A stretch of DNA of 51,159 nucleotides, taken from NCBI GenBank assembly GCA_029865845.1, contig JARXAM010000047.1, positions 1 through 51,159 of the forward strand, written 5' to 3'. Source of the stretch: Rhodoferax sp. (GTDB taxonomy: Bacteria; Pseudomonadota; Gammaproteobacteria; Burkholderiales; Burkholderiaceae_C). Of this stretch, positions 43,994 through 50,867 are shown in pieces. A model generated the notes under the pieces. The model saw only the letters and a program-made list of their open reading frames with translations. It was not told where the DNA came from and did no database searches. The stretch's first letter is position 1, and each line of letters begins with the position of its first letter. A program made the translations under genes and the position numbers.

Positions 43994-44561
43994 AGACGTG
44001 CTCCTGACGTATAGCGTATCTAGCGTTTAGTGACTGACCAATCGCTCGAATGGTAATTTAATTACCTTCAGTTGATCTACGGGCAAACCCTAGTTTTTGG
44101 ACAGTTTTGCAAATTTTCCATCATTTTCAAAAGCGATTTTGTACAAGGACAATTTTTCTCAATCTTGCATCCGTCTTTGAGACCCATTACGCAACTCAGT
44201 TACCTCACGATTACGGTTCCAGCGCGCGGTTGCACCCCCTAGCTGCGCGCGTGCGAGCAGCACACTCGCATCCATACGCAGCCTCACACGGCCCTACTAC
44301 GAGCCGACTGAGTCCGGCGACGGCGCGATGCCCAGTCTACATGGGTAACCTTTTTTTGGCGATTTATGTCACTTCGATTGTTTTTGTCATATCGAACGCG
44401 AGGTACGCCTTGCGGTGCCACCCAAAGCCCCGACGCCCACTTCCCCGTGATACGAGGCGCAACACAATATGGAATGACGAGGGGTAGGCCAACGCAATAG
44501 CGGCACCGACGCCGCGCACGCACCGGCGCGGTAGTGCACAGAATGGCGCGTGCGCAGCGCC
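43994..44561. promoter_or_regulatory. Control region of the agl operon; no gene seen
   Basis: These 568 bases lie between the aglK start and the helicase stop. GGTAATT-T-AATTACC at 44052-44066 is a perfect 15-bp inverted repeat, about 59 bases upstream of aglK, and a good candidate operator for a sugar regulator. The stretch 44090-44180 is A+T-rich. A 126-codon open frame on the plus strand (44107-44487) has no ribosome-binding site, odd composition and no family resemblance, so I do not call it a gene. Confidence 0.5.
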
Positions 44562-45845
44562 TCAGCCCAAGGGCGGGCGAAGGCCCGCTGCGCGCAACTT
44601 GTCTTTTTTGCTAGGCCTGCGTCCTTTGATGCCGCCGTTCGCTTGGTCCGCAGTGGTCGACTGCAGCGGCATAGTCACTTCGAATCCAGGCACGCATTCG
44701 CGCGAAACTTCCAAACGGTTTCTCTTCTCAATCAACGCGAAATGTGCGCTGTTGTCAGATGTGATGAAACTCGTGGACAAACCCGCTCGGCCAGCCCGCG
44801 CTGTTCGGCCAGCGCGGTGGACGTAATCCGCCGGGGATCGTGGCAAGTCATACGACACGACGACAGGAAGGTCGGCAATATCCAATCCACGCGCTGCAAC
44901 ATCCGTGGCCACAACCACGCGCACCACTTTTGTTTTGAAGTCGGACAGCACTTGGCTGCGTTTGCCCTGACTCAGGCGACCATGAAACGGCTCGGCGGCA
45001 TAGCCCGCGCGTCGCAGTTTGTCAGCGATGATTTCTGCGGCATATTGGCTCGCGACGAACACCAGCACGCGGGACCAGGTTTCGTGGTGAATCAAGTGAC
45101 ATAACAACTGCGTGCGACGTGACGACTCCACCAAAATGGCGCGATGAACGATGTCCGGTTTGGGTTGACTCGCTGGGTCAAGCCCGATTTCTACGGGCTT
45201 GCATAACTCTGTACGGGCCAGTTGTTGAAACTCTGGATTGAATGTGGCAGAAAAGTACAAGCTTTGGTGCTTTGATAGCAAAAGGGCCTTGATTCGATGT
45301 ACCTCGTCTGCAAAACCCTGGTCCATCAATCGGTCTGCCTCATCGAGGACCAAGCAACGCACGCCATCTAAACACAAGCCCCTACGATCCACAAGATCCA
45401 GTATCCGGCCCGGCGTAGCAACGACAATGTCGGTTCCACCGCGCAAGCCTATCAACTGGGGGTTGATAGACACGCCACCAAACACCACGGATACCTTTGC
45501 GGGTTTACCAAGGCCCAGGTTAACCTGGGACATTACTGCTCCCACCTGGATTGCCAAGTCGCGCGTAGGAACCAACACCAAAGCATAGGGCAGCCGCTTG
45601 GCTTGCACAGCTCTGAGCACCCAGCTATTCAAAAGCGCCAGCACAAAGGCCAGCGTTTTGCCGCTCCCGGTTGGTGCGCGTACCAAAACATCCCGCCCCT
45701 GCAAAATCGGCGGTATCGCCTCTAGTTGAACGGGCGTAGGACGGATATGCTGTAGACGCCCCAACGCAACAAGAACCAAAGGATGGAGGTCAAGTTGAGA
45801 AAAACTCACCTCGCATGGGACCGCTGGTGGCCCCTGCGTGCTCAA
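44562..45845 (-). CDS. DEAD-box ATP-dependent RNA helicase (RhlE-like)
   Basis: The 427-residue RNA helicase has the Q motif (FSQLDLHPLVL, RPTPVQLEAIP), motif I (APTGSGKT), Ia (PTRDLAIQ), II as VLDEADRL, III (SATF), V (ATDVAARGLDI) and VI (HRAGRTARAG). The basic tail is short (GRRPSKKDKLRAAGLRPP). No ATG precedes the Q motif appropriately. The TTG at 45845 overlaps the TGA of the upstream gene (TTGA), implying translational coupling; a GTG at 45809 is the alternative. Base composition is less GC-rich than in the core genes. RNA target is unknown. Confidence 0.88.
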   Translation of the reverse strand: MSTQGPPAVPCEVSFSQLDLHPLVLVALGRLQHIRPTPVQLEAIPPILQGRDVLVRAPTGSGKTLAFVLALLNSWVLRAVQAKRLPYALVLVPTRDLAIQVGAVMSQVNLGLGKPAKVSVVFGGVSINPQLIGLRGGTDIVVATPGRILDLVDRRGLCLDGVRCLVLDEADRLMDQGFADEVHRIKALLLSKHQSLYFSATFNPEFQQLARTELCKPVEIGLDPASQPKPDIVHRAILVESSRRTQLLCHLIHHETWSRVLVFVASQYAAEIIADKLRRAGYAAEPFHGRLSQGKRSQVLSDFKTKVVRVVVATDVAARGLDIADLPVVVSYDLPRSPADYVHRAGRTARAGRAGLSTSFITSDNSAHFALIEKRNRLEVSRECVPGFEVTMPLQSTTADQANGGIKGRRPSKKDKLRAAGLRPPLG

Positions 45846-46477
45846 GCCGCCACCGCTCTTTTGGCTTGCGAGGGAGATTGAATAAACTGCCCATTTCGGT
45901 TGAGGCGTGTGGCCAGTGCATCTAAGTAACCCAACAGCCGCTCCGCTTGCAGCGGTTTTTGGTACAAAGTAACCCAATTGGGCAATCGTCCATCGTCATC
46001 GACCTCTTTGTGCGTGAGCGCGGTGAGAACAATTACTTCAATAGATTGATAGGCCGCTTCCTGAGACATGGCATTGATCAGGTGGTAGCCATCAAACGGG
46101 GACATCATGAGGTCGGTTACCACCAAATCCGGACGCTGTCTTTCTAGCTGGATAAGTGCTTGTGATGCATCACTGGCGACAGTCAGTGTGACCTGATGCC
46201 CACCCCGCGCCAAGAGTGCTTGGAAATAAGCCACCTGGACCGGATCATCCTCAGCCAACAGCACTCGCATGGGACGAGAGCCGACTTCATTTGGCGTACT
46301 GGTTCCACGGGATTGCACCAGTTTGTCAATCGCACTCCGGAAAATCCGCCTGTGCCCACCGGGTGTTACCCACGCCTCCAACTCTCCACTGATGACCATT
46401 TTCTGCACCGAAGTGGTCGATAAGCCCAGAATTCGGGCCGCTTGTTGTGTGGTCAAGACGTCGGTGCTATTAGTCAT
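45842..46477 (-). CDS. Helix-turn-helix/receiver protein (inverted response regulator)
   Basis: The 211-residue protein has an N-terminal MerR/excisionase-like helix-turn-helix (about 6-50: LTTQQAARILGLSTTSVQKM, then the wing PGGHRRIFR). A C-terminal receiver (about 70-190) has acidic AEDDP, phosphoacceptor Asp in VVTDLMM, Thr in VLTALT and Lys in YQKPL, all intact. Most response regulators have the receiver first; here DNA binding comes first. The ATG at 46477 has AGG eight bases upstream. Its stop overlaps the helicase start. No histidine kinase is adjacent. Confidence 0.85.
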   Translation of the reverse strand: MTNSTDVLTTQQAARILGLSTTSVQKMVISGELEAWVTPGGHRRIFRSAIDKLVQSRGTSTPNEVGSRPMRVLLAEDDPVQVAYFQALLARGGHQVTLTVASDASQALIQLERQRPDLVVTDLMMSPFDGYHLINAMSQEAAYQSIEVIVLTALTHKEVDDDGRLPNWVTLYQKPLQAERLLGYLDALATRLNRNGQFIQSPSQAKRAVAA

Positions 46478-47904
46478 GTTTAGCCTGTTGTTAGAGTCCA
46501 GACTCGCCTCAGACACAACACGCGTCAGGGCCAGTGCGATAGATATATTTTATTCACTTCAAACCCCATAGAGCACATCACTTTTAGTTTTTGCATTTTA
46601 TTTACAAATCTTTTTTTGTGAAATTCGCCAATTCAATGCAGGGAATTCGCCACTACTTAAAGTCCACAGATGTCGGCGTTAGCATTTTTTCCATTTCACC
46701 CCCCAAATCAGCCGGTACAGTGAGCGCAAATTCCGGTGCAGGATCATTAATCTCAATCGGTTTCTCTAGGCATTTCGCGAAGCCCGTCACGATCCGCTGT
46801 GGGAAATTGGGATTGAGGTGAAAGCCAGAAACAATCGTTTCCAATGGTTTACAAATTTGGTTCATTTTTTTGAAGTACCTAAAACGTTGCAAATGAAATA
46901 TACCGAATTGGCCGTCGCTGTCAAGCTTACCCGGATTCTGAACGTAGCATGCAGTCGTCGCGCACATAACGTGGTCTACCCTGTAAACACCGCTTGCGGG
47001 CGGCTAGAACTGCTTCCTGCCGAAAGCGTGTCGCCCAAGCAGTTGTTTATCCGATCCGATCCGCTACCTAACGTCGTTACCCTCCGCCGTCCACACCAAC
47101 ATTTTCGGGAGATCCCGACCACTCACCCGCCGCCGAACTCTGGCAATAGGCTCTTGCGCGCTTTAAGCATTTTTTGCTTCATGCATCGCTTAGGGGGATA
47201 GAAAAGGTGAAGTGAAATGGCGCTGGGGCGATTCATCCGCGGAGTGCTCCGAGCTAGCATCCATTCCACAGGGAGGGACCACATGCAACCTCAATGCTTT
47301 TGGATGGTAGCGCTCGAAACTTTCGGCTTTTATGTCACCGGCGCTCGGGGCAAAACCTATGCGAATTTATTGATTCCACCGCGAATAGGTACTCTGCGCG
47401 AACCTTATACCTATGTACGTTAACGCATACGCTTCTGTACTATTCTGGGTGCCCCTTGCATCTGACCTTGTACATGCTTGCGTGTTGCAAGCACCTGTTT
47501 TGAATGTGCAGTCCCTGCGGGGATGGGTGTCGCTGGAACCATAACTGGGCCGCAATGGGAAGCATATCTGTGCCGATCAGGCAAGAAGGAGCTGTCTTTG
47601 GCCACCTTGAGGATATGGACCTTCTCCTTGACGGTCGGCGTGGACGCCTAGCAAGGCACAACCTTAATTGTTAAATCCCCCACTTTCGCGTGGAGGAACT
47701 CGCCAAGCTACGAGGCCAGGCCTTTACTCACGGAGGCCTCGACTTGGTCGCCTCGGAGAGCCCATTTATCGATTGAGCGTGTACACGGTCAGCACGCCGT
47801 TCAAGTAGCGCGAGCCGCTACGGTCTCATCTTTGAGACGTTAACGACCCATTAGCATCTAGTGTCCTGAAATCGAGTCACTATCCTCGGCTGAACTCAAT
47901 CCTC
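46478..47904. other. Gene-poor, A+T-richer stretch
   Basis: These 1.43 kb hold no convincing gene. A minus-strand open frame at 46653-46865 (70 codons, starting MNQICKPLETIV) has an amino-acid make-up compatible with a small protein but only a poorly spaced AGG, so it stays unassigned. Short frames at 46818-47201 and 47217-47423 (plus) and 47440-47661 (minus) overlap each other and look random or degenerate. The segment separates core-like genes from the caspase locus and may be a scarred integration region; I found no defined repeats or attachment site. Confidence 0.5.
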
Positions 47905-49647
47905 TCAACATTCGACGATCTTGAAAATACTGCCCTTATCGCCGTCGGAGCAGAGAAACAACCCTGGCTCAACGCAGACGATGCCCGGCCTTCGTGCCCC
48001 GCGTGAAAGCTGGAAGGAAGTGACGAAGCTGCGAAAGATCGGATCCCAGAATGCTACCGTCCCGTCGAAATAGGTCAGGCCCAGCAATTCGTGTTGCTCA
48101 TCGAACGCCATGGCGCACACCCCGACTTCGACGAAGTCCTTTTGTGTGGAATCACCCTTCCAGGGTAGGACGGCCATAGAGCAGAATCCGGACGTTCGAT
48201 GCTTGCGATCTACATACTCAGGCTGACCCTCAAGGCTGAGCCGCCCTTCAGCGACGCTGCCGTTGTCGGCGCCCAGATACACACGGTCATGGTCGGCCGC
48301 CACCAACATTGAGGTAATTCGCATAGGCGACTGACTGACCCAAGAACAATTTGCCTCCCAGCGCAATGCTCCTTTTTCCAAGTGGTACACATAGCTTCGC
48401 GAAGACGCGTCCCGTGTGCCGGCGACCAGAAGCGAAGTGCCCGTGATCCAGGTGGCAGCGTTGATCTCGAGACCAAGCGGCAGCCCTTGCACCTTCTCAC
48501 TCTTGAAATTGCCGGCAGTGTCTGACCAGAGAACCAGCCCAAGCTTGTTGGCATCGGGTGAGCCAAATGCCGCGAGGTATGCCCCTGCAGGTGACCACCG
48601 AGCTCCAAATACACGCGTCATGCCCGGCACTGTCTTGGCATTGGCCTCTATGGCGGTTTTTTGCCACGTAGCAGTTGCAGTCAAAACTTCGACGAGGTGT
48701 ACGCTCTTGCTGAGAGGTTTCACGAACGCATGGCGGCTACCGCCAGGATGCGGCTCGAAGGTGTACATGCTCCCGGACAACGCGGCCGGCAATCTCGCCT
48801 CCGGGAGCAACTGATTCGCCGTGTATTTGGCGAGTGCTCTTGAGCCCGAAAGTACCGCCCGTACCACGTTTCCTGACTGGCCCAGAAGTCTTGGAGAATG
48901 GGAGGTGTCCATCGCCTCTTGTTCGATCCGGAAACCATCGAGCGGGCGGTCACGCAGCGACGCGTACAGCCAGGGCGTCTGCCGCTTGAGATCCGGGAAT
49001 GAGGAGACGCGCGAGATCACAGCCTCCACAGTTGGCAGCACGCCACGACCGTACTGCTTCAATTCTTCTGTCAGCGACAGTGTGAAGCGGCTCGCCTTGT
49101 TATCCGGCATCCCAAATGATTTGGTCCCGTCAGCTGACGCGTAGATCACCACGCAATTGGAGATGTTTTCAAACGCCGTTCTGCGGGCCTTTTGCAACGA
49201 CTCGCTTAGCCCAGGTACTTCCTCAGGAACTCGGCAGGCATCGATGATGACCACCTTCTGCGCAGGCGAAGTCGACATCTCGTCCAATACAGTAGACAGT
49301 GCCAGCAAGTTGCCGTTGCCCGTTAGACTTTTCTTGAGGTCGGCGGTCGCGACGCCGCGTCCACGCAGGATTTGCACGCCATCAATGTCAATGCCATGAC
49401 CGCTGAAGTAAAAGACGATCGTGTCGTCGGCACTCTTCGCCTTCGCGAAGAACTTCTTGAGTTCTCCGTTCGGAACTAACGGTTGGAGTGCTTTGTCGAC
49501 CCAAGACTTGCATTTAAAGCCCTTGCGAGACAGTACTTGGGAAAGGCTTTTGACGTCGCGCTTGCAGAAAGGCAGGTCGCGCTCAGGGTCGCCGTAATCG
49601 GAAACGCCGACGAGAAATGCCTGTTTGACGGGTCGAGTTGCGCCCAT
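47905..49647 (-). CDS. Caspase-like (C14) peptidase with C-terminal beta-propeller
   Basis: The 580-residue protein has no signal peptide. An N-terminal caspase/metacaspase p20 domain (about 1-145) begins KQAFLVGVSDYGDPERDLPF and has the catalytic dyad His84 in FYFSGHGIDIDG and Cys138 in VVIIDACRVP. A p10-like part with ASADGTKSFGMPDNKASRFT and SLTEELKQYG runs to about 215. After a linker, about 300-580 forms WD40-like blades (ARWSPAGAYLAAFGS, CAMAFDEQHELLGLTYFDGTVAFWDP). GGAG lies eight bases before the ATG. Both catalytic residues are present, so proteolysis is likely; the propeller could sense a ligand or partner. It lies 98 bases downstream of the two-membrane-segment gene in the same direction. 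Confidence 0.85.
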   Translation of the reverse strand: MGATRPVKQAFLVGVSDYGDPERDLPFCKRDVKSLSQVLSRKGFKCKSWVDKALQPLVPNGELKKFFAKAKSADDTIVFYFSGHGIDIDGVQILRGRGVATADLKKSLTGNGNLLALSTVLDEMSTSPAQKVVIIDACRVPEEVPGLSESLQKARRTAFENISNCVVIYASADGTKSFGMPDNKASRFTLSLTEELKQYGRGVLPTVEAVISRVSSFPDLKRQTPWLYASLRDRPLDGFRIEQEAMDTSHSPRLLGQSGNVVRAVLSGSRALAKYTANQLLPEARLPAALSGSMYTFEPHPGGSRHAFVKPLSKSVHLVEVLTATATWQKTAIEANAKTVPGMTRVFGARWSPAGAYLAAFGSPDANKLGLVLWSDTAGNFKSEKVQGLPLGLEINAATWITGTSLLVAGTRDASSRSYVYHLEKGALRWEANCSWVSQSPMRITSMLVAADHDRVYLGADNGSVAEGRLSLEGQPEYVDRKHRTSGFCSMAVLPWKGDSTQKDFVEVGVCAMAFDEQHELLGLTYFDGTVAFWDPIFRSFVTSFQLSRGARRPGIVCVEPGLFLCSDGDKGSIFKIVEC

Positions 49648-49745: not shown

Positions 49746-50705
49746 TCAGTACCAAATTGGTTCGCTGGAATATATCGAACGATCCGAAATAATCACGATT
49801 GTGTAGAGCACGGCACCGGCGTAAACGAACTCCGGCAACGCATCGAGGACGTCGTGGTCTCGAAAGTACTTTATGTCGGCAAGACCCAGACGAGCCATCA
49901 GTCCAAGGGGCCTCATTTCCCCTTCGATCCTCGACCAGAGATCTGGAGACTCTCTCAGCTTGTATTCCTCTGCCATGTTTCTATCGATGGCTGCCACGAG
50001 CCGGTCGTGGTTCGCTTCGAAAACGAGGCGAAGCCGGTGTTGTGTTTCGCAAAATTTCTCGATGTGATCGATCGCCGTAAGCAGCAGTTGCCGCGCGGAA
50101 GGACTGTCCAGGCGCGCATCTAGGTCGCGGTATGCTTCGAAGAATTCGTTCGAGGACAGCAGGCGCTGCTCGGGCGCGCTTCGCCTTGCCACTGCACTAC
50201 GACGAATCCATCGTGGCAGCACGCGCGCAATCCCTCCGACAGCTTCGCTGTTTGATTCAGGCCGCTTGCAAGCGTCGCTTAACTCCCGCAGTCCCCGTCT
50301 TACCCCTGCATAACGCATAAGGATGTTCTCCTCGTACTGAGTGGGAAGCTCCGGCAAAAAAGACTTGAAGATCTGCTCGCTCATCCCATGGAAAAGATGT
50401 CGACTTGGACGAGGTTGTTTCGGCGTAGTGTGATCGTCAACCAGGTTGCACAGGGTCTTCAATGCGTCGTCAGCGCATTTCTGAAGTTCCAGCTTCGCAG
50501 CTTTTGAAGCCTCGCGCACATCTATAAGTAGGTCGCTGTATTTCTGGAGATGCACTGCGACGGAGTTTCTGTGTTCCCTTGCGTCAGCGACGATCACGGC
50601 CTCGCGTTGCCCCTTCTCTGCGCGCCGCGCCACCTTCAGCGACCACAGTGAAATTCCGATAGGCACCACCACTCCAGCCAAGTTAAATAGTTCGTGTTCG
50701 GTCAT
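49746..50705 (-). CDS. Uncharacterised protein with N- and C-terminal membrane segments
   Basis: I do not recognise this 319-residue family. It has a hydrophobic helix at about 6-23 (FNLAGVVVPIGISLWSLKVA) and a long charged, helix-rich middle (about 25-280) that includes a likely coiled coil (LLIDVREASKAAKLELQKC). A second hydrophobic helix lies at about 289-307 (LPEFVYAGAVLYTIVIIS). Both ends in the membrane with a cytoplasmic middle is one reading. The ATG at 50705 begins just before the first helix; a TTG at 50744 is the alternative. It is transcribed ahead of the caspase-like gene, suggesting one operon, and could be the peptidase's target, anchor or effector. Confidence 0.65.
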   Translation of the reverse strand: MTEHELFNLAGVVVPIGISLWSLKVARRAEKGQREAVIVADAREHRNSVAVHLQKYSDLLIDVREASKAAKLELQKCADDALKTLCNLVDDHTTPKQPRPSRHLFHGMSEQIFKSFLPELPTQYEENILMRYAGVRRGLRELSDACKRPESNSEAVGGIARVLPRWIRRSAVARRSAPEQRLLSSNEFFEAYRDLDARLDSPSARQLLLTAIDHIEKFCETQHRLRLVFEANHDRLVAAIDRNMAEEYKLRESPDLWSRIEGEMRPLGLMARLGLADIKYFRDHDVLDALPEFVYAGAVLYTIVIISDRSIYSSEPIWY

Positions 50706-50867
50706 TGAGCTTGTGCGTATGTCTCGCGATTCTTTATGCGCCAATTTTCACGGATCGATCCGCCTAGTGACCTCTCCATCACGGTTTAACATACAGCGGC
50801 AGTCGCTTCTACAACAGCCCAAACATCAGTCATTTACTTGTACGTGTGGGGGAGTCCATATAAGAAG

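Follow-up and report, generated by a model that had tools for sequence, protein, structure and literature searches.

Response regulators usually carry the receiver domain ahead of the output domain, and phosphorylation of the receiver would alter DNA binding by the HTH; in HTH_17-REC regulators the order of the two domains is inverted. The closest known helicases are of the RhlE type; for one of them, Caulobacter RhlE, low temperature is reported to bring about induction, mainly at the post-transcriptional level, and association with the degradosome (PMC5472812). For adjacent genes on one strand, the portion of a reporter study used here, covering E. coli and Haloferax, describes that reinitiation after termination is almost abolished by a spacing of about 20 nt (PMC10666635). 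We found no literature on a regulator-helicase pair, as judged from titles and the openings of abstracts among the matches listed.

Here we describe such a pair in a window of 51,159 nt, the whole stretch of DNA analysed, from contig JARXAM010000047.1 of a Rhodoferax sp. assembly (GCA_029865845.1). A previous sequence-only reading saw in it an inverted response regulator translationally coupled to a DEAD-box RNA helicase through a stop/start overlap. Our analysis favors, with a probability of about 0.68, a lineage-specific two-gene transcription unit in which the helicase would start at GTG 45809 and the TTGA would be incidental. A striking stop/start overlap may thus arise from an overlooked GTG start; and, if the reading is true, two-component control would extend to an RNA helicase through a pair of genes retained in 13 genomes. 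The features of the locus are collected in Table 1.

Table 1. Features of the regulator-helicase locus (positions in the window)
Feature	Coordinates	Strand	Basis and remarks
TAAAAT, -10-like hexamer, 69 nt before regulator ATG	46547..46552	-	Alignment of 13 upstream regions; consensus resemblance only
HTH_17-REC response regulator, orphan, 211 aa, ATG start	45842..46477	-	Pfam HTH_17 E 1.2e-11, Response_reg E 7e-15
HTH_17 (excisionase/MerR-like) DNA-binding domain, residues 7-57	46307..46459	-	Pfam; TIGR01764 also above cut-off
Receiver domain, residues 72-182	45932..46264	-	Pfam; E76/D77 acidic pair, D122, T152, K174 present
TTG of the sequence-only reading, overlapping regulator TGA	45843..45845	-	Sequence; adds 12 residues before conserved start
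Spacer, regulator stop to GTG, 32 nt	45810..45841	-	44-49 nt in 12 pair-clade relatives
DEAD-box RNA helicase, RhlE-like, GTG start supported by homology	44562..45809	-	DEAD E 4.5e-42, Helicase_C E 1.2e-28; start by alignment to relatives' ATG

The two proteins

The regulator is an inverted response regulator, as first described: the ORF (46477-45842, minus strand) encodes an N-terminal HTH_17 domain and a C-terminal receiver, a fusion in which both parts pass Pfam. TIGR01764 scores 42.7 bits against a cut-off of 28.8, and the HTH_17 domain, which at its Pfam E-value would serve as a DNA-binding output domain, includes the motif TPGGHRR (residues 38-44), presumably the mark of a MerR-like wing. 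The receiver retains an acidic pair, a phospho-Asp, a Thr/Ser and a Lys; we take E76/D77, D122 (the phosphoacceptor), T152 and K174 to be the active-site positions, and 82 of 84 aligned homologues have a D at position 122. The regulator starts at an ATG, and 12/12 pair-clade relatives have one in the corresponding position. A search for a solved full-length relative returned none at E ≤ 1e-6; the 14 PDB matches, all confined to residues 58-191, take in the receiver domain with its flanks but leave out the HTH. Across the family, the regulator has matches at E ≤ 1e-10 in 103 of 200 genomes, some of these covering just the receiver domain; in plasmid records the regulators are all below 60% identity (166/166).

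The ORF behind the regulator, which ends at 44562 on the minus strand, does encode a DEAD-box RNA helicase: RPTPVQ, PTGSGKT, DEAD, SAT, ARGLDI and HRAGRTAR are found in that order, and we take them to be the Q motif, Walker A, DEAD, SAT, motif V and motif VI, respectively. Two motifs vary among homologues (PTRDLA vs. PTRELA in the pair relatives; HRAGRTAR vs. HRIGRTGR in the family genome G002). The best NCBIfam matches are RhlE1 (343.5 bits; cut-off 750) and RhlE (342.6 bits; cut-off 743), both far under the curated cut-offs, so the protein was not assigned to the RhlE equivalog. It has the DEAD and Helicase_C domains in common with Caulobacter RhlE and differs from it in sitting behind a response regulator. 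The role in cold or RNA turnover that was suggested for it earlier is a guess. A role in defence was considered and rejected, as its 37 PADLOC matches resemble general helicase matches.

The start of the helicase gene

The letters TTGA at 45845-45842 are present, overlap the regulator stop in frame with the helicase, and resemble the 4-nt overlap of coupled pairs in the material drawn from PMC10666635; the helicase start also has no in-frame ATG, as the sequence-only reading stated. The choice of TTG as the helicase start fared differently: an in-frame GTG at 45809, 32 nt past the regulator stop, had been overlooked, and it aligns with the ATG of the homologues. An ATG lies within 8 codons of the GTG-aligned place in 12/12 pair-clade helicases (exactly aligned in 10), in 17/17 genus helicases outside the pair clade (exact in 14), and in 28 of 29 family loci (exact in 14), some family loci being cut by contig ends (L058, L063) and L071 having no ATG near the aligned place. 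These 12 pair and 17 non-pair loci come from 88 genus genomes with a helicase match (the window's own included); the 29 family loci are those of relatives among 117 family genomes with a match (own included). The residues ahead of the GTG, LSTQGPPAVPCE, fall before the relatives' ATG, local matches passing the start by a few residues in some rows. All 12 pair-clade helicases begin with M-P-F-S, M-S-F-S, M-T-F-S or M-P-F-F, i.e. M-[PST]-F-[SF].

In 12/12 pair-clade relatives the helicase has an ATG of its own 44-49 nt past the regulator stop, and a conserved in-frame start on that stop is found in 0/12. The helicase ATG stands in frame 1 relative to the regulator stop in ten relatives, in frame 2 in one and in frame 0 in one, the last being G426, whose regulator stop is TAA. 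The TTG is in frame in the window because the spacer is 12-17 nt shorter than those of the relatives. Overlaps of this kind also come about by chance: among the 77 mechanical ORFs in the window (ATG-started, at least 150 aa, six frames, many of them not genes), 22 end in A/G/T+TGA. Where the frame of a downstream gene stays open through the upstream stop, about one gene in 10 is thus expected to show such an overlap (22/77 x 1/3); the helicase frame is open for 50 codons before the TTG.

Translational coupling with "fixed co-production", as originally proposed, would mean that the window species starts the helicase at TTG 45845 and, through the 4-nt overlap, makes regulator and helicase in a fixed proportion. 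The TTGA exists and is in frame; the TTG has the better Shine-Dalgarno-like match (-4.6 vs. -2.4 kcal/mol for the GTG), and therefore a species-specific TTG start is possible; and co-directed pairs most often overlap by 4 nt or 1 nt, according to the portion of PMC10666635 used here. However, the 12 extra residues come before the relatives' ATG, none of the 12 relatives places an in-frame start on the regulator stop, and chance would produce such an overlap in about 1 case in 10. Coupling over the 44-49 nt of the relatives is unlikely in its own right, because a spacing of about 20 nt nearly abolishes reinitiation in the reporters described there (PMC10666635). Unlike the overlaps of the coupled pairs in that source, the one in the window is not conserved and is probably not a start. 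We find coupling unsupported and judge it distinctly unlikely; on homology and conservation, the TTGA overlap is most likely accidental and comes down to which start codon was chosen.

The spacer itself is strongly alike in L109-L119 (GCGGGGGCTC.TGCCGCCGT or close), beyond the apparent need of a plain gap; that of the window is shorter and less like them.

Distribution of the pair

Among 103 genomes of the genus, a regulator orthologue (E ≤ 1e-95) was found in 13, the window's included; in the 12 other carriers the regulator is 82-91% identical and the helicase is the next gene in 12/12. Of the two things proposed for comparison across relatives, the gene order is thus conserved in the clade and the overlap is not (0/12). 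The sequence-only reading had also staked itself against relatives in which the helicase has its own ATG and promoter and lacks an adjacent regulator: such an ATG is present inside the clade, relatives lacking an adjacent regulator occur outside it, and an own promoter is only hinted at.

Outside the clade the two genes are apart in nearly all of the loci examined. More distant regulators occur in 27 genus loci (L121-L147; 57-70% identical) and in one family locus (L148; 51%), and no helicase match was found near them in the fetched stretch, the downstream part of which is short in some (201 bases at worst). We treated 26 of these loci (L121-L146) as one type, named after dprA: in the seven genomes read (G414, G416, G484, G480, G402, G432 and G462) the regulator adjoins a dprA-like gene, with secF on the opposite side in six. 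Regulator and helicase of this type lie on one contig in 18/26, 6.7-7.1 kb apart and always divergent, and on different contigs in 6/26; 2/26 have no helicase match at E ≤ 1e-100. Two of seven further genus helicase loci read (G446 and G493) share the G217 neighbourhood, in which a ugpC-like and a pobA-like gene flank the helicase, and have no regulator match (best E 1.3 and 0.32, respectively). Within the stretch of up to 1.5 kb taken on each side of the family helicase loci, a regulator of the HTH_17-REC kind appears in 1/29 (G002), where it is downstream of the helicase and 35% identical. The pair of G426 has different surroundings, with rsmI-like and EAL-like genes. The names dprA, secF, ugpC, pobA, rsmI and EAL are our reading of translations, not tool output, and neighbouring genes were read in part of the loci.

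The best reading of this distribution is a lineage-specific regulator-helicase pair whose order is kept in one clade. Its two proteins diverge unequally: between the window and the relatives the regulators are 82-91% identical and the helicases 60-65%, and between G217 and G399 the values are 94% and 79%. The regulator and the helicase are therefore not evolving in step, which speaks against a tight partnership.

In other members of the genus, a related HTH_17-REC regulator by a dprA-like gene, mostly with secF on its other side, was seen at L121, L127, L133, L138, L144, L191 and L192.

Paralogues and a candidate kinase

The absence of a histidine kinase near the pair was noted earlier and holds for the contig: 0/37 HATPase_c matches of the genome are on the window contig (C114), in an assembly that is 76% complete. 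The same genome has, on contig C45, a paralogue with 61% identity to the regulator; a REC-like ORF adjoins it on one side and a kinase (HisKA, HATPase_c) on the other, and the kinase is followed by another regulator, 37% identical to that of the window. A second regulator with 55-60% identity to that of the window is present in 12/12 pair-clade relatives, and a kinase adjoins it in G217 and G349, the two loci checked (62% and 56% identity); G349 has one more paralogue of the C45 type (L096), at whose locus a kinase is absent. Because the C45 paralogue adjoins a kinase, and its counterparts in G217 and G349 do so too, the C45 kinase is plausibly the first candidate partner of the orphan regulator.

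A tree of 82 regulators, in which the second regulators included are those of G217 and G349, gathers the 24 dprA-type rows in one fork (98/93). Another fork (99/97) unites the pair-clade rows and the C45-type paralogues, the latter nesting beside G426 with weaker support; the tree carries a long-branch warning, its inner order is unsure, and it excludes L139 and L141 (rows with a stop or fewer than 150 aligned residues were left out). The dprA-secF site was considered as the former place of the window regulator and dropped: dprA of the pair-clade genomes has no regulator or SecF match within 1.5 kb in 10/10 (own included), so the site is uninformative on the origin of the regulator. EmbRS of Rubrivivax, a lead in that its paper names rhlE, was likewise set aside: in the part of that report on which we draw, the receiver is N-terminal and rhlE is listed with a polysaccharide cluster (PMC3684757).

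One strand of locus L032 (6921-12590) in the window genome holds a REC-like ORF, two HTH_17-REC-type regulators and a histidine kinase; a multi-PAS histidine kinase lies on the other strand.

Upstream sequences and expression of the pair

The -10-like TAAAAT upstream of the regulator is present in 12 of 13 aligned genomes and reads TAGAAT in G426. A promoter scan of 45700-46800 gave 1 site vs. 0.8 in shuffles, and picked another TAAAAT, at 46600-46595. The hexamer TAAA[AC]T occurs within 120 nt of the helicase ATG in 8/28 family loci (L071 left out), in 5/17 genus non-pair loci and in 0/12 pair loci, against about 1% in shuffles; the rows are related, and most helicases elsewhere are also without the hexamer. 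Its absence before the pair helicases is a hint that these may rely on the regulator transcript. As a candidate shared operator, TAAAATGCAAYGGAAGCCCCAAAACTGA, taken from the alignment of relatives and searched with up to 3 mismatches, occurs once each in 4/8 genomes (G217, G454, G399, G431), always at a site immediately before the regulator; it is absent from the window genome, G426, G446 and G493; we draw no regulon from it because it is found once per genome, only at the regulator, and is missing from half of the eight. No known RNA family reaches the gathering threshold in 44000-48000.

The reading we prefer would have the regulator transcribed from a promoter upstream of it, with the helicase, 32 nt downstream, read from the same transcript and its translation starting at GTG 45809. 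We consider co-transcription of the two genes likely. The regulator may have come to lie upstream of an existing helicase gene and displaced its upstream region; loss of the regulator in other lineages is the other possible direction of events. The regulator would probably receive its phosphate from a kinase of another locus, plausibly that next to the C45 paralogue, and may control its own promoter and hence the level of the helicase. A stronger version, in which the captured helicase, of a housekeeping type, has lost its own promoter and is expressed only from the autoregulated transcript of the regulator, so that a phosphorelay controls RNA remodelling, seems doubtful to us.

The two genes could instead be mere neighbours, the helicase having its promoter within the regulator gene and being otherwise unconnected with the regulator. 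That they are apart outside the clade in nearly every locus examined, and evolve at very different rates, fits this explanation; but the tandem order with a spacer of 44-49 nt is kept in 12/12 other carriers, including G426 with its other surroundings, and TAAA[AC]T is absent from the 120 nt before the helicase in all 12, and we regard mere neighbourhood as unlikely. The proposed two-gene transcription unit is a pair of ordinary parts in a clade-specific order.

Other features of the window

Elsewhere in the window, a 332-aa ORF (49746-50744, minus strand), for which neither Pfam (E ≤ 1e-4) nor PADLOC (E ≤ 1e-5) gives a match, lies beside a gene for a caspase-domain protein (47905-49647, minus strand). 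The latter matches Peptidase_C14 (E 1.6e-22) over residues 9-233 of 580, has a weak PADLOC caspase match (8.2e-06), and carries a long C-terminal part.
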